A stretch of 64,000 nucleotides of DNA from Brevinematales bacterium (GTDB taxonomy: Bacteria > Spirochaetota > Brevinematia > Brevinematales > GWF1-51-8). Location of the stretch: assembly GCA_020059465.1 (NCBI GenBank), contig JAGVBZ010000030.1, forward strand, positions 124,001-188,000, given 5' to 3'. The translations under genes and the position numbers were made by a program. The notes beneath the pieces were generated by a model. The model saw only the letters and a program-made list of their open reading frames with translations. It made no database searches and had not been told where the DNA came from. Shown here piece after piece: positions 6,094 through 28,114 of this stretch (positions are counted from its first letter, which is position 1; the number at the start of each line of letters is the position of its first letter).

Positions 6094-7032
6094 ATGAATG
6101 AAAATTCACTCGCTGCCGGGCATGCGTTTCGCATCGAAAAATGGATTAACATATACGAATTAGTCTTCGATGCGGCTATCGCGGGTATTTCAATGATTCT
6201 TTATCATATTCTCGCTCCGGTCTCCGGGTTTTTGCTGTTCGATACGGACCCTTTACTCATGCTTCTTATCATGGGTGTGTCCGAATTTTGTATCATGCTG
6301 TTTTTCGGGCAGGTCTTCCGCGCTCACGAAGATTCGTCTGAAAAACTCACAACGTTAACCATTATTATCATTATTCTCGCAATACACTTCGTATTTTTAA
6401 TAATGCCTGCAAGACTTTCGGCGGTATTCGAGAAAATTCCCGGCATCGGCGACGAATTGGTGTTTGCGTTCGTCCCGATATCCGGAGCGTTTGTTATACT
6501 GGGTATCACTTTCGGGTTCCCCCGTATATACTTGAAAGACTTCAGTCCGATTTTTGGATTTGTGTTCGCCCTTTCGGGGCTTCTCAGTGTTTTGTCATTT
6601 ATTGAAATACTATTAAAATTCGGAATAATCCCAGGCCTGATTTTTCTGCTTATTGTCGGTAGCCCGCTATTGATCAATAGGATTATCGTACTGCGCCCGA
6701 TTCCGAAAAAATCAAAAAAAACCAGTCCTTTGCTTAAGCCGTTGCGAATTATCGCGGGAATCCTAATCTCAGTCGCTGCCGCATTCTCTCTGATGGTATG
6801 GCAGGAATTGATCACTGTGCGGGAGGTGCAGAACGCGGTATCCGCAGGAGAACATATTTCTCCATGGCATATCCTTCTGATGCTTTTTTTCAGCGGTATA
6901 ATCCCTGTACGAATTCTGGCGATTATTGCGCCGCCCTTCCGGCCTATCAACGCCGGAATTGCGGTCATATCCATGTTTTTTTATTTTTTCTCCATCGCCG
7001 CTGCGATTAATAAACTTTCCGCAATCTTATAG
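6094..7032 (+). CDS. Multi-pass membrane protein, first of three tandem paralogues
   Basis: The 312-residue product has about eight hydrophobic segments and short loops; I do not recognise the family. The amphipathic N-terminus (WINIYELVFDAAIAG) and the C-terminal segment (GIIPVRILAIIAPPFRPINAGI) are the best-conserved parts among the three neighbours. GGAAGG precedes the ATG. It is followed after 26 bases by a paralogue sharing long nearly identical DNA stretches at both ends but a diverged middle. Probably one transcript of three genes. The conserved loop MVWQELITVREV could be functional, but no catalytic or transport motif is visible. Confidence 0.75.
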   Translation: MNENSLAAGHAFRIEKWINIYELVFDAAIAGISMILYHILAPVSGFLLFDTDPLLMLLIMGVSEFCIMLFFGQVFRAHEDSSEKLTTLTIIIIILAIHFVFLIMPARLSAVFEKIPGIGDELVFAFVPISGAFVILGITFGFPRIYLKDFSPIFGFVFALSGLLSVLSFIEILLKFGIIPGLIFLLIVGSPLLINRIIVLRPIPKKSKKTSPLLKPLRIIAGILISVAAAFSLMVWQELITVREVQNAVSAGEHISPWHILLMLFFSGIIPVRILAIIAPPFRPINAGIAVISMFFYFFSIAAAINKLSAIL

Positions 7033-7058
7033 AACTATCCCTAATTGAGGAAGGGTAT

Positions 7059-7997
7059 ATGGAGAATAAGCGGTTTTTAGAAAATATTTTCCGGTGGGTT
7101 AACCTGAACGAATTAGTCTTCGATGCGGCTATCGCGGGTATTTCAATGATTCTTTATCATATTCTCGCTCCGGTCTCCGGGTTTTTACTGTTCGATACGG
7201 ACCCTTTGGTCATGCTCCCTATCATGGGTGTGTCCGAATTTTGTATCATGCTGTTTTTCGGGCAGATTTACCGCGTTTTTAACGAAGAAAATCTGAACCC
7301 GCCCCGCGTCCTTTCGGCGCTTTCCGATATTATCCTGTTTATTGCGATTAACGGGATATTCTTTTTAATGCCCGCCCTGATGGCTTCGGTCGTTCGGTCT
7401 ATACCGGATATCGCGGAAAATATCGAATTTGCGCTCGTCCCTATTTCCGGGGCGTTCATCATTCTCGGCATCACGTTCGGATTTCCCCGCAGGAATTTAA
7501 AGGACATCGAACCCCTGCTCTCCCTTCCGCTTGCCATCACCGCGCTGATGGGAGTCATTTCCGTTCTTTTCGTTTTATTCACCTACGGGGTGATACCGGG
7601 AATAATTTATATCCTATTTATAGGCGGCGCGCTTTTATTGAACCGATTGCTTCTACTGAAGCCGGAGAAGGAAGCCGCGTTGAGGCCAGTCCCGAAAATA
7701 CGCGCCGGCAGGGTGATCGCAGGAATCATCGTGCCGATTGCCGTTGTGTTCGCATTGATGGTTTGGCAGGAACTTATCGTAGTCCGCTCGGTCACCAACG
7801 CTCTCGCCGCGGGGGAAACATTAACCCCATGGAACATCGTTGTACTGATGACACTCAGCGGCCTGATTCCGGTGCGGATTCTCGCTATCCTCGCGCCTCC
7901 CATCCGGCCTATCAACGCCGGGATTGCGGTCATATCCATGTTTTTTTATTTTTTATCCATCGCCGCTGCGATCAAAAAACTTTCCGCAATCTTATAG
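7059..7997 (+). CDS. Multi-pass membrane protein, second of three tandem paralogues
   Basis: This 312-residue product matches the first paralogue almost residue for residue over its first 70 and last 60 positions. The DNA of 7110-7265 differs from 6157-6312 at only five positions by my count. The central 170 residues differ strongly between the two. GAGGAAGGGTAT precedes the ATG and is repeated before the third copy. About eight membrane segments; the loop MVWQELIVVRSV is shared. Function unknown. Confidence 0.75.
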   Translation: MENKRFLENIFRWVNLNELVFDAAIAGISMILYHILAPVSGFLLFDTDPLVMLPIMGVSEFCIMLFFGQIYRVFNEENLNPPRVLSALSDIILFIAINGIFFLMPALMASVVRSIPDIAENIEFALVPISGAFIILGITFGFPRRNLKDIEPLLSLPLAITALMGVISVLFVLFTYGVIPGIIYILFIGGALLLNRLLLLKPEKEAALRPVPKIRAGRVIAGIIVPIAVVFALMVWQELIVVRSVTNALAAGETLTPWNIVVLMTLSGLIPVRILAILAPPIRPINAGIAVISMFFYFLSIAAAIKKLSAIL

Positions 7998-8023
7998 AAA
8001 TATCCGTAATTTAGGAAGGGTAT

Positions 8024-8965
8024 ATGGAAAATCAGGGGGTAATAGAAAAAGTTTCCCGGTGGGTTAACCTGAACGAGCTGATATTCGACGCGGTACTAAC
8101 TATTATAGGGCTGGTTGTATACCGCCTGATCGTCCCGGCGAGCGGATTCCTGACATCCGGCATAGGCTTCTGGCCGCTTTTTATCATCGTGCTGGGAGTC
8201 CAGTTTATCGTGATCGTATTCTTCGGTTCGCTCTTCCGACAATTCGAGGAATTGACCGGAAAATTAACGTTCCTCCGGGTACTGATACGAATCATTCTCT
8301 TTCTGGCGATTACCGGGCTGTATGTCCTGATGCCGCTGGAACTGTACAGGATATTCTCGCAAACCGAGGAAATCCAAAATGATTTCGCGCTGGCAGTATT
8401 CGGACTGATGGGGTATATCATGATACTCGGCGCGATCACGGGCTTCCGTCTCGATCAACTGAAGGTTATCAAGTTCATACTTTATGTCCCGGGACTGATG
8501 ACCATCGGCACTCTCCCGATCACCGTTATTTATTTCTTCACCTATCATGGCATTCTCGCCGGAATCCTGTCTATCGTTATTCTCGCCGGAGTCATGTTCG
8601 GAGTAATCGTTCTGAAACAGCATTTCGAAAATAAAAAGCCGACGGAGAAACCCGCCCTCATCCGGATGAAATCCGTTCTTCTTATCGCGGGCATTCCTAT
8701 TCTGACTGTTGCCGCGCTCACCGTATGGCAGGAGATGACCCTGATCAGCACCGCGCGTGCAATGGCGAATAACAATATGGCGATCAGCCCGGAGAATATT
8801 CTTCCGGTCCTGCTGTGGAGCGGATTTATCCCGATACGGATACTCGCTGCGCTCGCCCCGCCGTATAAACCGGTCAATACGGTCATCACGCTCGGCGCGT
8901 TCTATTTCTATTATACTTCGCTGGTATCGATTATCGATAAGCTCTCGGGGGTGATTACGAAATAA
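8024..8965 (+). CDS. Multi-pass membrane protein, third and most diverged tandem paralogue
   Basis: The 313-residue product shares with its neighbours the N-terminal RWVNLNELIFDA, the loop TVWQEMTLIS and the C-terminal GFIPIRILAALAPPYKPVN, but its DNA is much less similar, so it is the oldest split. Its first 30 bases of coding DNA and the ribosome-site region still resemble copy two. About eight hydrophobic segments. It ends the probable three-gene operon and is followed by a tandem-repeat region. Function unknown. Confidence 0.75.
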   Translation: MENQGVIEKVSRWVNLNELIFDAVLTIIGLVVYRLIVPASGFLTSGIGFWPLFIIVLGVQFIVIVFFGSLFRQFEELTGKLTFLRVLIRIILFLAITGLYVLMPLELYRIFSQTEEIQNDFALAVFGLMGYIMILGAITGFRLDQLKVIKFILYVPGLMTIGTLPITVIYFFTYHGILAGILSIVILAGVMFGVIVLKQHFENKKPTEKPALIRMKSVLLIAGIPILTVAALTVWQEMTLISTARAMANNNMAISPENILPVLLWSGFIPIRILAALAPPYKPVNTVITLGAFYFYYTSLVSIIDKLSGVITK

Positions 8966-17711: not shown

Positions 17712-18158
17712 TTACTGCCCTATCGACTGGTACTCATTGAGGGCGAGTATCAACGGTTTTGTCTTGTCCTGATCGGCGGAAAACTTGCGGATCGCGCCGT
17801 CCACAGCCTGCACAAAATCGTCGCTCGACAAGGTAAGTTCGAGAACCTTCTCGCCCATGAATGCAAGTATATTATCCACTTCCTCTTTGCTCAGGTTCGG
17901 GTATTTCTGAGATATTCTGTCGATCCCCGGATCAATCCCTTTCTTCGCGTCGGTCACCGATTTTATCGTATCCAGTATCACATTGATATTCGTCGACGCG
18001 CCGATTACCTTGATCGCGTCGTTCTGGACTTTGCATGTGGACGTAATCAGACCGTCCAGTTCCGCCTTCGCCTTCGTGAAATCGGAACTCTCGGCCGCGC
18101 AGGAGACCACCATGAATATTGCGGCGAATATTGCTGAAAAAAACATTCCTCTTTTCAT
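17712..18158 (-). CDS. Small helical lipoprotein, member of the tandem array (copy 5)
   Basis: The ATG at 18156-18158 follows GGAGGAAAG, giving 148 residues. The signal peptide ends in VVSC (lipobox), so the mature protein starts CAAESS and is predicted membrane-anchored by lipid. The mature part is almost entirely helical and charged, and it carries the array's shared pattern: INVILDTIKS then IDRISQKYPNLSKEEV. The last gene of five consecutive lipoproteins. It differs from the others by an internal Cys (STCKVQ). Function unknown. Confidence 0.78.
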   Translation of the reverse strand: MKRGMFFSAIFAAIFMVVSCAAESSDFTKAKAELDGLITSTCKVQNDAIKVIGASTNINVILDTIKSVTDAKKGIDPGIDRISQKYPNLSKEEVDNILAFMGEKVLELTLSSDDFVQAVDGAIRKFSADQDKTKPLILALNEYQSIGQ

Positions 18159-18193
18159 AGCTTTCTTTCCTCCAATCCTATTATTCCTACAGT

Positions 18194-18634
18194 TCATTCG
18201 TGCGGGATGAGTATCATAAGCGGGTCGAATGCCTTCGTGAGCAGGTCGATAGCCGTATGGTCTCCCGCGTAGCGCGCCAGCAGGCCGCCTACAGTCTCGC
18301 CCAGTTCCTGCGATAAATCGGCAAGCTTATCGTACTTCGTCTGAAGCATCTGCCTCAATAGTTCCGCCTCTTTCGGGGAAACCGGATAAAGGTCGTCGAT
18401 ATCGTTCATCTCGGATAGGAGCGCGTTCGCCTGCACAGCGGCTTTTTCAGCCGCGGCCGCCGCCTGACCCGCGTCCTTCGCCGAGGCGGTCTGCTCGATC
18501 GCGGCGGTAATCACTGCGATCCATTTATCCAGCACCGTATGATATTCCCCGGCGGCTTTTTTTATATCCGTTCCGCAGGAAGCGAGCGCAAGGATTAATC
18601 CCAGCACCGCTGTGTATTTCAAGGCATGTTTCAA
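18194..18634 (-). CDS. Small helical lipoprotein, member of the tandem array (copy 4)
   Basis: The frame opens at a GTG 18641-18643 that overlaps its own GGAG, so the TTG at 18632-18634 (eight bases after GGAG) is the better start, giving 146 residues. LALASC is a clean lipobox. The mature part is helical with an Ala-rich stretch (DAGQAAAAAEKAAVQAN), then IDDLYPVSPKEAELLRQM, matching the shared motif. It ends 35 bases before copy 5. No enzymatic motif. Confidence 0.72.
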   Translation of the reverse strand: MKHALKYTAVLGLILALASCGTDIKKAAGEYHTVLDKWIAVITAAIEQTASAKDAGQAAAAAEKAAVQANALLSEMNDIDDLYPVSPKEAELLRQMLQTKYDKLADLSQELGETVGGLLARYAGDHTAIDLLTKAFDPLMILIPHE

Positions 18635-18673
18635 TGTGAACACTCCGTCGGTATATTTTTATCGGCCAATCAG

Positions 18674-19114
18674 TTACATCTGCAAACTATAGGCGAGGTT
18701 CATCCGCGCCTGATGAATTTTTTCCTTTGCAGCGCTGTCTTTTTCGAACTTAATGAGAATACCGTCGACAGTTTTACCCATCTTTTCGCCGGACTTGGTG
18801 AAATTGTCGAACGTCGTCTGCATCATCTCCATCAGCTTATCGTTCTCGGGAACACTCAGCGTATATTTATTATCGATCAGCTTCAATTCCGCAATCAGCC
18901 CGTTCGCTGTCTCCGACGCCCCGTTCAGAATCGCAACAATCTTATCGCTGTTGGTTTCAGCGTTCAGCTTATCGACAGTCGTGTTCAATAAAGCCGTCAG
19001 CTTATCGATAGCGGGAGCCATTTCCGATTCGACCTTTTTCAGGTCATTTCCGCCGCACGATGCTGTCATGATCATTAAACCTGCTAATAACCCCAGACTG
19101 AAAATTCTTTTCAT
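18674..19114 (-). CDS. Small helical lipoprotein, member of the tandem array (copy 3)
   Basis: The 146-residue product has GAGGAGCG upstream and a lipobox at TASC, followed by GGNDLKKVESEM. The mature helix-rich part contains NSDKIVAILNG and LIAELKLIDNKYTLSVPENDKL, the clearest version of the family motif. Spacing to the neighbouring lipoprotein genes is 30-40 bases. Function unknown; a periplasmic lipid-anchored helical bundle is the likely structure. Confidence 0.78.
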   Translation of the reverse strand: MKRIFSLGLLAGLMIMTASCGGNDLKKVESEMAPAIDKLTALLNTTVDKLNAETNSDKIVAILNGASETANGLIAELKLIDNKYTLSVPENDKLMEMMQTTFDNFTKSGEKMGKTVDGILIKFEKDSAAKEKIHQARMNLAYSLQM

Positions 19115-19152
19115 CTTTCGCGCTCCTCTATGTTTTATATCTGTCCCGGTTC

Positions 19153-19596
19153 CTACATCCGGCTCGCTTCGACAATGACATCTATCGTGGTTTTCAACTG
19201 CTCCATTACGTCGGCGCTATCCGCAAATTTTTCAGCCGCCGTACCGAACGCCTTATTCAGCGTTTCGCTTGCGGCGCCAAGTTCCGCATAGACGTCGCTC
19301 AATCTCCCCTGAAGCTCGTCATCCTGCGCGGCATTCAGGTTATACTTGTCCGATATCTCCTTCAGTTCCCGAGTGAAATTCAGGAACAGTTCGCCGGATT
19401 TTTTTATCAGCATGATTGTATCTTCAGCAGATTGTGAATCGTTCATCTTTGCGGCGATTTCGTTCATCGAACCGACCATATTCTTCATCGACATCCGAGC
19501 TTCGGCCTCGATTTTCTTCATATCCGTACCGCCGCCGCATGAGATGAATAATGCCGTGAAAACTGCGATAAACCCAAACCTCATAAAATTTTTCAT
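19153..19596 (-). CDS. Small helical lipoprotein, member of the tandem array (copy 2)
   Basis: I choose the ATG at 19594-19596 (GGAG eight bases upstream) over a GTG three codons earlier, giving 147 residues. Lipobox LFISC, then GGGTDMKKIEAEARM. The shared motif appears as SAEDTIMLIKKSG then RELKEISDKYNLNAAQDDEL. The rest is Lys/Glu/Ala-rich helix. Same strand and short gaps as the other four lipoproteins. Confidence 0.78.
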   Translation of the reverse strand: MKNFMRFGFIAVFTALFISCGGGTDMKKIEAEARMSMKNMVGSMNEIAAKMNDSQSAEDTIMLIKKSGELFLNFTRELKEISDKYNLNAAQDDELQGRLSDVYAELGAASETLNKAFGTAAEKFADSADVMEQLKTTIDVIVEASRM

Positions 19597-19645
19597 TTTC
19601 AGCACTCCTTAATGATAACCCTTCCCGTCAAGCCATCATATCGTA

Positions 19646-20083
19646 TTACATACTGCCGATTTCCCGAAGGCTGAGAAGCGCGTCCATCAGCTTTTCTACT
19701 TCCTTCGGATTATCCTTGTACTTTTCCAGCACTGTGTTGATATTGCTGTTCAGCGAAACCAGCACCGTACCTACCGTATTGTATTCGGTTTTCAGTGTTT
19801 TTACCAGTTTTTTAGATTCATCGGGGGTAAGGTTGAATTTTTTCTCGATAGCCTTCATTTCGAGTATAATCTGCTTCATTTTCCCGGCGGTTTCCTTGAT
19901 AATCGCGGCGGCCTCGTCCGCGGACTGTACCGATATGATTTGCAGGGAGGCTTTTTCTATCAACGCGGACATCCCCTGTACCGCCGGGCGCATTTCGTTC
20001 GCGGCCTTATTGATGTCGGCTCCGCAGGATACGAAAAGCAGGCCCGCCCCGATCAGACCCGGCAGGAAAAACAGTTTCTTCAT
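19646..20083 (-). CDS. Small helical lipoprotein, member of the tandem array (copy 1)
   Basis: The first lipoprotein gene after coaD (42-base gap), 145 residues, with GGGAG upstream. Lipobox LFVSC then GADINKAANEMRP. The motif reads SADEAAAIIKETAGK then EMKAIEKKFNLTPDESKKL. Mature residues DINKAA/DIKKAA are shared with copy 4, supporting duplication. Function unknown; probably made from the coaD transcript or a nearby promoter. Confidence 0.78.
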   Translation of the reverse strand: MKKLFFLPGLIGAGLLFVSCGADINKAANEMRPAVQGMSALIEKASLQIISVQSADEAAAIIKETAGKMKQIILEMKAIEKKFNLTPDESKKLVKTLKTEYNTVGTVLVSLNSNINTVLEKYKDNPKEVEKLMDALLSLREIGSM

Positions 20084-23223: not shown

Positions 23224-23247
23224 CGCCCAACGGGCGCTTTATTTTTT
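23224..23247 (+). terminator. Rho-independent terminator after acyP
   Basis: CGCCC-AAC-GGGCG hairpin (23224-23236) followed by CTTTATTTTTT. It separates acyP from the LacI-type gene, whose TATAAT (23265-23270) lies just downstream. Confidence 0.8.
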
Positions 23248-23290: not shown

Positions 23291-24307
23291 ATGCCGGACT
23301 TAACAAGAAAGATCACTATCTACGACGTAGCCAAACGCGCTAATGTCACTATCGCCACAGTTTCCCGCGTCATCAACGGGAAGGACAACGTCTCGGTGCC
23401 GACGAAAGAAATAGTCATGCAGGCGATCGAAGACCTGAATTATTATCCGTCTCCCATCGCGTCGGGCCTGTCCAAACGAAAGTCGCAGGAAATCGGCGTA
23501 CTGGTGCCGTTCTTTTTCGGCGAGTTCTTCCTGAAACTCCTCGACGGTATAGCGAAGGAGCTGCACGATTTCGACCTGATTCTCTACGACGCCACCACGC
23601 CGGAGCATAAAAAGAAACTGATAGCGAAGGTGGTCGGCGAAAACAAACTCGACGGACTGGTCGTGGTATCGCTGCCTATCCGCACGGACGAGGAAATTAA
23701 TCTCCGCAAGGCGCGTTTCCCGATTGTTCTGATCGATACGATGCACCCGACCTATAGTTCCGTCTGCTTCGACAACACCTACGGCGCATATAAGGCGGTC
23801 GAATACCTCACCGGATTGGGACATAAACGGATAGCGATTATCAGCGGCGCAATCGAAGACCCGTTCCACTTCACCGTCGCGAGCGAGCGTCTGAAAGGCT
23901 ACAAGATGGGGCTTGCGATGGCGAATATCCCGATAAACGATAAATATATCCAGATTAACGACTGGAGCCGGATGGGCGCGAATATTATCACAAAGAAACT
24001 GATGGGAATGAAAGAACCGCCTACCGCCATTTTCTGTGTCAGCGACCTTCAGGCTGTGGGCGTACTCGAAGCAGTCCGCGAACTCGGTATCCGTGTCCCG
24101 CAGGACCTATCCATACTCGGATACGACAATATGGACTTCAGCGATTATATCGGATTGTCGACAATGTCCCAGCCGTTAAGTATCGCGTCCCAACTCGGAA
24201 TCGAACTGCTGAAGACAGAAATAGATTCCGGTATCAATAAAAAAGAAAAAATAATTCTTCAACCCGCGCTGATCGAACGGTCGACAGTCGCTCCGATATC
24301 TTCTTAA
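23291..24307 (+). CDS. LacI-family transcriptional regulator
   Basis: The 338-residue product has an N-terminal helix-turn-helix (ITIYDVAKRANVTIATVSRVINGK) and hinge (NYYPSPIASGLSKRKSQEIGVLVP). A periplasmic-binding-protein-like sensor domain follows (GLVVVSLPIR, RIAIISGAIEDP, AIFCVSDLQAVGVLEAVRELG, LSILGYDNMDF). It is 13 bases upstream of the tandem APC-EIIA permeases, so it probably controls them; LacI proteins usually sense sugars. The ligand cannot be read. AAAGG precedes the ATG. Confidence 0.93.
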   Translation: MPDLTRKITIYDVAKRANVTIATVSRVINGKDNVSVPTKEIVMQAIEDLNYYPSPIASGLSKRKSQEIGVLVPFFFGEFFLKLLDGIAKELHDFDLILYDATTPEHKKKLIAKVVGENKLDGLVVVSLPIRTDEEINLRKARFPIVLIDTMHPTYSSVCFDNTYGAYKAVEYLTGLGHKRIAIISGAIEDPFHFTVASERLKGYKMGLAMANIPINDKYIQINDWSRMGANIITKKLMGMKEPPTAIFCVSDLQAVGVLEAVRELGIRVPQDLSILGYDNMDFSDYIGLSTMSQPLSIASQLGIELLKTEIDSGINKKEKIILQPALIERSTVAPISS

Positions 24308-24320
24308 TAAAGGAGGAGTC

Positions 24321-26204
24321 ATGGCGTTAAAAAAACAACTGAGCGGAATCGAGGTATTCAGTCTCGCGTCGGGCGCCATGATCAGTACAGGTATCTTCGT
24401 CCTTCCGGCAATCGTCTTTAAAATCGCGGGGCCCGCGATACTCATTTCGTATTTTTTCGCGGGGATACTCATGCTGCCGGTGCTTTTTTCCCAACTCGAG
24501 CTCGGTTCCGCTATCCCGAAGGCCGGCGGAAGCTACTTTTTCGCGGAGCGCATTCTCGGCTCGGCCGCCGGAGTTTTCACCGGTTTCGCGAACTGGTTCA
24601 CCATTACCCTGAAAAGCGCGTTCGCTCTGATCGGAATCGGCGCGTTCGCGACCCTGATTTTTCCCAACCTCACCGAATGGGAAATAAAGATTATCGCCGC
24701 GTCCTTCTGCCTTTTCTTTACGTTCACCAATCTTGTCAGCGTGGAATCGTCCGGAAAACTTCAGGTCATTATGGTGATCGCGCTGCTTCTCATACTCGGG
24801 CAGTTTATCCTGTTCGGGTACAGGCTGATGGATTTCTCGCGGGTGGCCAATATATTCGATTTTAAATGGAAGGATGTTTTTCTGGTTACCGGTATGGTGT
24901 TTATTTCATACGGCGGGCTGATCAAGGTATCGAGTATCGCCGAGGAAGTGAAAAACCCCCAGAAAACTCTGGTACTCGGGACAATCTTCGCGTTCATAGT
25001 CGTTCAAGTCCTATACATGCTGATCATTTTCGTGCTGATCGGGATACTCCCCGGCGAGAAGCTTGCCAATACACTTACCCCCCTCTCGGTGGCGGGACAG
25101 CACTTCTTCGAAACCCCGATTCTCTCGCGTATCGAACTGATTGTCACCGCGCTCGCCGCAGTCCTCGCGTTTGTCACCACAGCCAACGCAGGCATTATGA
25201 CCGCGTCCCGGAACCCGATGGCGATGAGCCGCGACAGCCTTCTCCCGCAGCTGTTCGCCAAAGTATCGAAGAAGAAAAAGATACCCTATATTTCGGTCAT
25301 CCTGACATCCGTAGTCATGCTGCTCGTCATTCTGCTGCTCAATATCGAGCAGCTCGCTAAGGTGGCGTCGCTTTTCATGCTTCTCGTATTCTCAATGGTC
25401 AATCTATCGGTCATCATTATCCGTTATACCAAACTTTCCACCTATAAGCCCTCGTTCCGGGCGCCCCTGTTCCCGGTGCTTCAAATCGCGGGGATCGCCG
25501 CATATCTTTTCCTGATATTCGAGATGGGATGGGAAATTTTTACCGCGGCGGGCGGTTTCCTTGCGCTTTCGATCACATGGTATTTTGTCTATGCGCGAAA
25601 ACGGGTCAAACGTAAATCGGCGTTTGTGCATATGGTGGAAAAGATCATCGACCCCGAACTCAAAACGGAGGGTTCGGTGCTGGAGGACGAGCTTTTGGAT
25701 ATCCTGATGGAGATGAAGGAGATCCATGAGGACAGGTTCGATAAAATCATCCGCGACGCGAAAATCTTCGACCTCACCCGCACCATCACCCGCGACGAAC
25801 TTTTCCGGATGGTTTCCGAAAGTGTCGCAGAAAAATGGAATATCGATCCGAAACTTGTCAGGATGAAACTCGATATTCGCGAGGAAGAGGCCTCCACTTT
25901 AATCTACCCGGGTGTTGCGGTTCCGCACGCCATCCCGCATATCGTCATCGAAGGCGAGCACCGTTTCGATATCATTCTCGTACGCGATAAGCACGGGATC
26001 GACTGGAACGAAAAGGGAGACGTCGTATACACCGCGTTTTTCCTCATCGGTTCGAGAGACGAACGGAATTTCCACCTTCGGGCATTGATGGCGATCGCGC
26101 AGATCCTTCAGAATCCGAAATTCCATCAGGATTGGATGATGGCGAAATCCGAGAAAGAACTCCGATCAATCATTTTATTGACGGAACGCCAGCGCACGGT
26201 ATAA
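24321..26204 (+). CDS. APC-family amino-acid permease fused to a PTS EIIA-type domain (copy 1)
   Basis: The 627-residue product has about 12 membrane helices in residues 8-440. The N-terminal SGAMISTGIFVLPA, KAGGSYFFAERILG and the later PMAMSRDSLLP are APC superfamily signatures. After a charged linker (about 445-480), residues 490-627 form a PTS EIIA type-2 domain: YPGVAVPHAIPHIVIEGEH with predicted phospho-His536, and FFLIGSRDERNFHLRALM. The fusion suggests that uptake is gated by EIIA phosphorylation or that the domain is regulatory, as for EIIA-Ntr. AAAGGAGGAG precedes the ATG. The next gene is a close duplicate. Confidence 0.88.
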   Translation: MALKKQLSGIEVFSLASGAMISTGIFVLPAIVFKIAGPAILISYFFAGILMLPVLFSQLELGSAIPKAGGSYFFAERILGSAAGVFTGFANWFTITLKSAFALIGIGAFATLIFPNLTEWEIKIIAASFCLFFTFTNLVSVESSGKLQVIMVIALLLILGQFILFGYRLMDFSRVANIFDFKWKDVFLVTGMVFISYGGLIKVSSIAEEVKNPQKTLVLGTIFAFIVVQVLYMLIIFVLIGILPGEKLANTLTPLSVAGQHFFETPILSRIELIVTALAAVLAFVTTANAGIMTASRNPMAMSRDSLLPQLFAKVSKKKKIPYISVILTSVVMLLVILLLNIEQLAKVASLFMLLVFSMVNLSVIIIRYTKLSTYKPSFRAPLFPVLQIAGIAAYLFLIFEMGWEIFTAAGGFLALSITWYFVYARKRVKRKSAFVHMVEKIIDPELKTEGSVLEDELLDILMEMKEIHEDRFDKIIRDAKIFDLTRTITRDELFRMVSESVAEKWNIDPKLVRMKLDIREEEASTLIYPGVAVPHAIPHIVIEGEHRFDIILVRDKHGIDWNEKGDVVYTAFFLIGSRDERNFHLRALMAIAQILQNPKFHQDWMMAKSEKELRSIILLTERQRTV

Positions 26205-26233
26205 TATTCGGACTGTTTTTTATCGGGGAAAGT

Positions 26234-28114
26234 ATGAGATTGAAAAAGCAGTTATCCGGTATCGATATCTTCAGCCTCGCATCGGGCGCGATGATCAGCA
26301 CAGGAATTTTCGTCCTGCCAGCCGTCGTATTTAAAATCGCAGGCCCGGCTATTCTCATTTCCTATCTATTGGCCGGACTCCTGATTCTGCCGGCATTATT
26401 TTCACAGCTTGAACTTGCGACAGCCATCCCGAAAGCGGGGGGGAGCTATTTCTTCGCGGAGCGCATACTCGGTTCGGCCGCCGGAACTTTTACCGGTTTC
26501 GCGAACTGGTTTACCATCAGTTTGAAGAGCGCGTTCGCCCTCATCGGCATCGGCGCGTTCGCAACCCTGATTTTTCCCCATCTTACCGAATGGGAACTGA
26601 AAATTATCGCCGCGTCGTTCTGCGTCTTTTTTACCGTTCTCAATCTCATCAGCGTCAAGTCGTCGGGTAAATTACAGCTTTTTCTTGTCGCGGCGCTTCT
26701 GTTAATCCTGGTTCAGTTCCTTTTTTTCGGATACCGCATCGTTGATTTTAGACGGGTTTTCGATTCTTTCGAGCTGAATTGGGCCGCCATTCTACCGGTC
26801 ACGGGTATGGTTTTTATTTCATACGGCGGCTTAACAAATATCGGGAGTATGGCGGAGGAGGTCAAGAATCCTCAAAAAGCGCTTGTTCCGGGGCTTATTC
26901 TCGCATTTATCACGGTCGAAATCATCTATCTTGCCATCATTTTGGTATTAATCGGCACATTAACCCCTTCCGAACTCGGCGGAACACTAACTCCCTTATC
27001 GCTTGCCGGAACAAAATTCTTTTCCTCGCCCGGATTGCAGAACTTCCAATTGGCAGCCACAGCGATCGCCGCTATTCTCGCATTTGTCACTACCGCAAAC
27101 GCAGGCATCATGTCCGCATCCAGAAGCCCGATGGCGATGAGCCGCGACGGCCTGCTTCCCGGCGCGTTTGCAGAAATATCGAAGAATAAGAAAATTCCGT
27201 ATATTTCCGTAATTTTCACTTCGGGTTTCATGCTTCTGATTATTCTCCTTCTCAACATCGAACAGCTCGCGAAAGTAGCCTCGCTTTTCATACTATTAGT
27301 TTTTATTTCCGACAATTTATCTGTTATCATAATCCGCTACACCAGAATATCCACCTATAAACCCTCGTTCCGCGCGCCCCTATTCCCGGTGCTTCAAATC
27401 GCGGGTATCGCCGCATACCTTTTTCTGATCGTCGAGATGGGATGGGAAATCCTTACGGCGGCAGGCGGTTTCCTTGCGCTTTCGATTATCTGGTACTTCG
27501 TTTATGCGCGAAAACGGATCAAACGTAAATCGGCGTTCGTGCATATGATAGAAAATATTATCGATCCGGAACTCAAGAAGGACAATGAACAGCTCGAAAA
27601 CGAGTTATTAGATATATTAATGGAAATGAAGGAAATTCATGAGGATCGATTCGATAAAATCATCCGCGACGCGAAAATCCTCGATCTCGACCATACGATC
27701 ACCCGCGATAAACTATTTAAACGGGTCGCGGAAATAATCGCGGAACAGTGGAATTCCGACCCGGCATGGATAAAACTGAAACTTGAACGCCGTGAAGACG
27801 ACGCATCCACGCTGATTTTCCCCGGAGTAGCAGTTCCGCATGCCATCCCGCATATCGTTGTCGAAGGCGAGCACCGTTTCGATATCATTCCCGTACGAGA
27901 TAAGCATGGGATCGACTGGAACGAGAGGGGGGACGTCGTTTATACCGCGTTCTTTCTCATCGGCACCAAGGACGAACGCAATTTCCATCTCAAGGCGCTG
28001 ATGGCGGTCGCGCAGATTCTGCAGGATCCCGACTTCCAGAAAAACTGGATGAACGCGCGAAATGCCCAGGAACTTCGTTCGGTTCTTCTACTGACCAAGC
28101 GCCAGAGATCATAG
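26234..28114 (+). CDS. APC-family amino-acid permease fused to a PTS EIIA-type domain (copy 2)
   Basis: Start at ATG 26234 (GGGGAAAG upstream), 626 residues. The same architecture as copy 1 in the same order: LASGAMISTGIF, KAGGSYFFAERILG, SPMAMSRDGLLP, then the EIIA domain with FPGVAVPHAIPH and predicted phospho-His536. The two are highly similar throughout, with many silent differences, so the duplication is not recent. Divergent positions in the transport core (for example TNIGSMAEEV versus IKVSSIAEEV) hint at different substrates. Probably co-transcribed with copy 1 and the LacI gene. Confidence 0.88.
   Translation: MRLKKQLSGIDIFSLASGAMISTGIFVLPAVVFKIAGPAILISYLLAGLLILPALFSQLELATAIPKAGGSYFFAERILGSAAGTFTGFANWFTISLKSAFALIGIGAFATLIFPHLTEWELKIIAASFCVFFTVLNLISVKSSGKLQLFLVAALLLILVQFLFFGYRIVDFRRVFDSFELNWAAILPVTGMVFISYGGLTNIGSMAEEVKNPQKALVPGLILAFITVEIIYLAIILVLIGTLTPSELGGTLTPLSLAGTKFFSSPGLQNFQLAATAIAAILAFVTTANAGIMSASRSPMAMSRDGLLPGAFAEISKNKKIPYISVIFTSGFMLLIILLLNIEQLAKVASLFILLVFISDNLSVIIIRYTRISTYKPSFRAPLFPVLQIAGIAAYLFLIVEMGWEILTAAGGFLALSIIWYFVYARKRIKRKSAFVHMIENIIDPELKKDNEQLENELLDILMEMKEIHEDRFDKIIRDAKILDLDHTITRDKLFKRVAEIIAEQWNSDPAWIKLKLERREDDASTLIFPGVAVPHAIPHIVVEGEHRFDIIPVRDKHGIDWNERGDVVYTAFFLIGTKDERNFHLKALMAVAQILQDPDFQKNWMNARNAQELRSVLLLTKRQRS

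Follow-up and report, generated by a model that had tools for sequence, protein, structure and literature searches.

The analysed window, a stretch of 64,000 nucleotides from a Brevinematales bacterium (assembly GCA_020059465.1, contig JAGVBZ010000030.1, positions 124,001 to 188,000 of the forward strand), carries two tandem plus-strand genes that each encode an APC-type carrier joined through a helical linker to a C-terminal EIIA domain of the phosphotransferase system (PTS). Gene 1 (24321-26204, 627 amino acids) was recognised by its open reading frame, Pfam matches, a structural model and fold matches, and gene 2 (26234-28114, 626 amino acids) by its open reading frame, Pfam matches and its pairwise identity to gene 1. 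Such a pair had been proposed in a preliminary description made from the nucleotide sequence, and we can confirm it: both are real open frames, and the numbering of His536 is the same in both. The start of gene 2 is most likely the ATG at 26234; a longer frame starting with TTG at 26132 overlaps gene 1. In gene 1, the transport core (residues 1-430, with an APC fold by Pfam, model and fold match) occupies 24321-25610, the helical linker (about residues 431-469, from sequence and domain model) 25611-25727 and the EIIA domain (about residues 470-627) 25728-26201. The corresponding core and EIIA domain of gene 2 lie at 26234-27523 and 27641-28111, respectively.

The two halves of these proteins are well supported. 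Residues 7-400 match AA_permease_2 of Pfam above the curated cut-offs (E 3.5e-46 for gene 1 and 1.5e-39 for gene 2), and about residues 487-618 of both proteins match PTS_EIIA_2 (PF00359; gene 1: E 1.4e-17, 64.5 bits; gene 2: E 5.5e-16, 59.3 bits; cut-off 27). PTS_EIIA_2 was the only PTS family found by the Pfam scan, which gave no match to PF00358 (the IIA-Glc class) and no EIIB or EIIC domain in either protein. Among the NCBIfam models, TIGR00909 (2A0306) scored best, with 215.6 bits for gene 1 and 195.4 bits for gene 2, although both values remain below its cut-off of 556.8 bits. The full-length AlphaFold2 model of the gene 1 product, built from an alignment of 73 sequences, reached a mean predicted local distance difference test score (pLDDT) of 90.1 and a predicted template modelling score (pTM) of 0.88, and its core superposes on GkApcT (6f34; Z 46.5, 2.1 Å over 419 residues, 24% identity). 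A search of the PDB with this model listed relatives of APC fold only, and the EIIA part was recovered only from the C-terminal 199 residues (429-627) folded alone (pLDDT 90.0). The closest folds of this domain model are EIIA-Ntr proteins (2a0j with Z 18.8 and 2.4 Å over 145 residues, followed by 3urr, 1a6j and 4gqx with Z 18.7, 18.4 and 18.1), and PtsN was also the top match of a profile search by sequence (4gqx, E 3.1e-13). The domain model superposes as well, with Z about 12, on the cytosolic domains of the human SLC4 exchangers Band 3 and AE2.

The fusion is not a peculiarity of the window. A scan of genome contigs for the linker-EIIA cassette yielded 273 candidate relatives, the best 79 loci of which were kept. 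Among these best 79, 64 belong to 18 named phyla, led by Spirochaetota (16), Planctomycetota (14), Cloacimonadota (7), Omnitrophota (6) and Latescibacterota (5), with one or two in each of the others; the remaining 15 have no phylum in the taxonomy table. Since nearly all titles mark metagenome assemblies, phylum labels that rest on a single locus may be binning errors. Complete frames of the relatives mostly measure 612-666 amino acids. The APC-EIIA fusion is therefore a conserved and widespread family that occurs in many uncultured bacterial groups. In a separate draw of 247 genomes of Spirochaetota, 30 matched the cassette strongly (E below 1e-20). When this draw was searched with the transport core alone, all 35 places with at least 36% identity and near-full coverage lay in frames of at least 609 amino acids, each with an EIIA match, so that within the draw this type of core was seen only together with the cassette. 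Four further partial core matches come from contig edges, a fragment or a divergent fusion (in genome G202). The next tier of full core matches shares 25-29% identity, and the one that was checked is an APC-Usp protein.

For the active site, 94 non-duplicate relatives (99 collected, five duplicates dropped) were aligned with MAFFT; nine of the 79 named loci, whose gene runs off the contig, were left out. Arg520 (25878-25880 in gene 1), His585 (26073-26075) and one Pro-His column are kept in all 94, and these columns match the RE...PH...HL pattern of PtsN, with Arg520 in the place of its RE and His585 in that of its second conserved histidine. We take these to be the catalytic residues of an EIIA domain. 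The claim that an intact type-2 EIIA has been added to a secondary carrier is thus borne out, with the PtsN/Fru class indicated by Pfam, fold and residues alike. Because the catalytic residues are conserved, the fusion appears to keep the phosphate chemistry, and the EIIA domains are probably switchable by phosphate. We consider it likely, by analogy with LacS, that EI and HPr would phosphorylate the cassette and that the cassette would thereby set the activity of the APC carrier in cis, although with parts that differ from those of LacS.

A different use of the same domain has to be weighed at this point. The EIIA part might be a constitutive docking or scaffolding module that binds HPr or a partner subunit, in which case phosphorylation would be irrelevant. 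The SLC4 exchangers mentioned above provide a precedent, as EIIA-like folds form their cytosolic domains and we know of no phospho-relay that acts on them. However, mere docking would not need Arg520, the Pro-His pair and His585, which have been retained in every aligned relative, and we regard this alternative as unlikely.

In the preliminary description the idea of a phosphorylatable domain hinged on EI and HPr being encoded in the genome. Both are present. The genome (3.19 Mb, 96.6% complete) encodes one EI, which shows all three of its Pfam domains and the active-site stretch GGTTSHAAI, one HPr with the motifs GLHARPA and KSIMNLL, one HPr kinase, whose gene adjoins that of HPr, and two free EIIAs. 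The sugar EIIC family PF02378 had no match in the genome, in a search that did not extend to other EIIC families or to EIIB. One of the free EIIA genes (in locus L127; G000:C25, 2140-3813, minus strand) is followed after 12 bp by a gene for a CPA2-type antiporter in the same orientation; it is possibly a trans counterpart of the cis fusion.

These gene contents also bear on the idea that the fused EIIA is a donor whose phosphate moves on, either to a second protein or to the solute being transported, much as in genuine PTS permeases. An EIIA is part of sugar PTS permeases or is recruited by them, and the intact catalytic residues of the fusion would suit such a donor. But neither protein contains an EIIB, the genome has no PF02378 EIIC (within the limits of the search just given) and the core has the fold of an APC carrier, so that we consider a donor function highly improbable.

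The relay genes were also counted in 80 cassette-bearing genomes, namely those behind 50 of the 79 loci and the 30 from the phylum draw. HPr was found in 73 of them, EI in 72 and an EIIC above the cut-off in 4. In the 18 genomes with a completeness of at least 90% and a contamination of at most 5%, the counts were 18, 18 and 0. In the whole phylum draw an EIIC above the cut-off is present in 61 of 247 genomes, and there it is rarer in cassette genomes (1/30) than in the others (60/217; Fisher p 0.0026). These counts agree with a relay that lacks a PF02378 sugar channel, but they do not establish that it is linked to the fusion. After the controls, the presence of HPr and the absence of EIIC were rejected as evidence by themselves.

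The transport core departs from its best structural match in its charged residues. Passages of the GkApcT report (PMC5803215) describe Lys191 in transmembrane helix (TM) 5, Glu115 in TM3 and Asp237 in TM6B as important. We counted the equivalent positions in 92 rows of the family alignment, with five divergent or non-APC rows left out and considering ungapped rows only. The Lys191 position (aligned 155) holds Leu in 84 of 90 rows, the Glu115 position (aligned 94) Ser, Ala, Thr or Phe in 89 of 89, and the Asp237 position (aligned 201) Thr or Leu in 85 of 90; the charged triad of the CAT-type GkApcT is therefore not present in the family. Two lysines stand out instead. Lys98 (24612-24614 in gene 1) lies in TM3, one helical turn past the Glu115 position, and occurs in 89 of 89 ungapped rows; Lys202 occurs in 81 of 90, with gene 1 having Lys202 and gene 2 Asn202. 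Judged from the alignment, this conserved pair of lysines would be in keeping with an anionic substrate or with a different coupling ion. The designation as amino-acid permease accordingly stands for the APC core, which Pfam and the fold support, but not for amino acids as the substrate, which were inherited from the name of the Pfam family and are not backed by the three GkApcT residues.

The loss of this triad could also be taken as a sign that the membrane part has turned from an ordinary carrier into an anchor or a sensor, while the EIIA cassette acts elsewhere. We think this improbable, since the core is otherwise highly conserved and Lys98 and Lys202, besides their near-constant presence in the family, recur in the haloarchaeal APC-Usp relatives. 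The conserved core and the lysines common to both groups rather point to a different coupling or substrate than to a loss of transport.

These haloarchaeal relatives are plasmid proteins whose core is 35-37% identical to that of gene 1 and in which a C-terminal Usp domain replaces EIIA. Six of 362 records were listed, and the two examined (L162, 2489-4693, and L163, 2492-4669, the latter with a TrkA_N gene just upstream) have both lysines in the core. The C-terminus of the core thus looks like a slot for regulatory domains. The cassette in turn occurs on other membrane machines, as judged by domain matches. L085 (4057-6579) encodes a CPA2 antiporter of 841 amino acids with the order Na_H_Exchanger-TrkA_N-TrkA_C-EIIA, L060 (1815-3245) a shorter frame of this type (TrkA_N-TrkA_C-EIIA), and L160 (262-2346, minus strand) an APC-EIIA-TrkA_C protein with a three-part regulatory tail. 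In L161 (G044:C658, 4648-5859, minus strand) the alpha subunit of an F-type ATP synthase is fused in frame, at its C-terminus, to linker and EIIA. The contig cuts the 5' end of the alpha gene, and the gamma and beta genes then follow in the normal atp order with gaps of 10 bp and 3 bp. This fusion was seen once only, in the assembly of a Spirochaetota genome; to arise as an assembly chimera it would take two joins. The Usp swap and the other hosts of the cassette support the view of the preliminary description that EIIA is a regulator, whereas the nitrogen-status link suggested there is not directly supported.

From these results, the course of regulation can be sketched. The architecture, the fold, the catalytic residues, the relay genes and the conservation of the fusion are shown by the present data; phosphorylation, docking, the effect on transport and its direction as well as the substrate are steps that we infer. 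As the relay has no PF02378 channel to feed (other EIIC families being unsearched), the phosphate on HPr should report the state of phosphoenolpyruvate (PEP) and pyruvate. Phosphorylated HPr would hand this phosphate to His536, or else to His540, with Arg520 and His585 assisting the transfer. Depending on whether it is phosphorylated or free, the EIIA domain would then dock in different ways on the cytoplasmic side of the carrier, which would alter the rate of transport. By analogy with PtsN and EIIA-Glc one may guess that the unphosphorylated domain inhibits, but this sign is close to a coin toss.

Several observations weigh against this regulatory scheme. The acceptor histidine is ambiguous in the subgroup of the window, as its proteins carry the motif PHAIPH, which makes both His536 (25926-25928 in gene 1, 27839-27841 in gene 2) and His540 (25938-25940 in gene 1) candidates. 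In the MAFFT alignment the Pro-His column common to all 94 relatives is that of His540, and 75 of the 94 are gapped at position 536. By its distance of 16 residues from the RE motif, however, His536 is the canonical one, with the same spacing as in the free EIIAs of the same genome. The doubled motif was found in 21 of 99 domain rows, all from one clade (support 1.0). Moreover, the EIIA domain scores far under the NCBIfam cut-offs for PtsN and FruA: the PtsN equivalog TIGR01419 gave 23.3 bits for gene 2 (cut-off 138.7) and is absent from the 25 matches listed for gene 1. The co-occurrence data are less telling than they seem, since HPr is near-universal in the phylum draw (231 of 247 genomes) and its presence says little; counted by family, the depletion of EIIC (3/19 versus 9/32) is not significant (p 0.50). 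Neither HPr nor EI was found in five of the 80 cassette genomes, and one of these five is 60% complete. Finally, the fusions have no conserved neighbour gene that would connect them with the relay or a pathway. In 117 first-neighbour open reading frames from 72 of the 79 loci (the seven others being duplicates or relatives from the genus), no Pfam family occurred more than four times, and clustering by BLAST gave one cluster of six, joined through shared domains, and otherwise clusters of at most four.

In the window itself, the pair is preceded by a gene for a LacI-family regulator of 338 amino acids (23291-24307, plus strand; open reading frame and Pfam), which ends 13 bp before gene 1. A terminator-like hairpin (23224-23236, plus strand), found between an acylphosphatase gene and the LacI gene by a weak pattern scan (12 found versus 6.1 expected), suggests that the LacI gene may start its own transcription unit. 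No operator-like palindrome stood out in a palindrome search upstream of the LacI gene. The position of the regulator had been described correctly. The sugar-responsive expression deduced from it is weak: the LacI gene adjoins the pair in each of the four genomes examined from the genus, and nothing similar recurred outside the genus in the neighbour survey.

The products of genes 1 and 2 are 76% identical. By region, the identity amounts to 0.73 in TM1-8, 0.87 in TM9-12, 0.84 in the linker and 0.72 in the EIIA domain, with residues 151-270 as the least identical stretch. The copies therefore do differ in the transport core, as had been stated, but not mainly there, because the EIIA domains differ as much. 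The exchange of Lys202 for Asn202 suggests that the tandem copies probably differ in substrate or affinity. Tandem doubling was seen in the window and in G089, L043 and L051. In the EIIA tree, the two members of the L043 pair are closest to one another (support 0.996), and so are those of the L051 pair (1.0), which indicates that doubling happened more than once; the core tree supports the L051 pair with only 0.36. The pairs of the window and of G089 were rejected as simple orthologous pairs, and the placement of the two window copies is weakly supported, with 0.13 in the EIIA tree and 0.78 in the core tree.

Elsewhere in the window, five consecutive small genes on the minus strand (17712-20083) encode lipoprotein-like products of 145-161 amino acids, each with a cysteine after a signal-like start, and look like a tandem array of paralogues. 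Three plus-strand frames in a row, of 312, 312 and 313 amino acids (6094-8965), are possibly another such array.

The various, mutually unrelated bioenergetic hosts of the linker-EIIA cassette might belong to a transport-free PTS that serves as a general energy-status network, in which PEP-derived phosphate would set directly, by histidine phosphorylation, the activity of APC carriers, CPA2-TrkA antiporters, an APC-TrkA_C carrier and an F-type ATP synthase (through its alpha subunit) in many uncultured phyla. We put this forward as a tentative idea that is rather doubtful at present.

A literature search found no paper on an APC-EIIA fusion, although a mention in passing or in older comparative PTS surveys is possible and Pfam architecture lists were outside the search. 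There are, however, several known systems with which the window proteins can be compared. The two haloarchaeal APC-Usp carriers examined are close to them in core identity and both lysines but have Usp instead of EIIA and keep a Gly where the bacterial family has Ser22. GkApcT shares the fold of the core, whereas in the fusion family the charged triad is replaced, Lys98 and Lys202 are found instead, and linker and EIIA are added. PtsN (EIIA-Ntr) controls Kdp. It resembles the fused domain in fold and residues, and the genome of the window likewise combines an EI/HPr relay with the lack of a PF02378 sugar channel; in contrast, the EIIA domain of the window is covalently fused to its presumed target and does not reach the cut-off of TIGR01419. 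Control of ABC uptake by PtsN in Rhizobium is described in PMC3665714. The closest parallel is LacS of streptococci and lactobacilli, which also combines a secondary carrier and a C-terminal EIIA in one chain. According to PMC10710835, its fused IIA-Glc-like domain is phosphorylated by HPr and modulates transport. LacS differs in having a GPH instead of an APC core and an IIA-Glc-like domain instead of PTS_EIIA_2 (the PtsN/Fru/Mtl class); the window family, on the other hand, has relatives in many phyla, and the genome of the window gave no PF02378 match. If regulation by EI and HPr is true, EI-HPr relays without a sugar channel would have a plausible job, since their phosphate could be destined for carriers that are equipped to accept it, and the APC-EIIA fusions would be a second and much wider case next to LacS, with a different carrier and a different class of EIIA.

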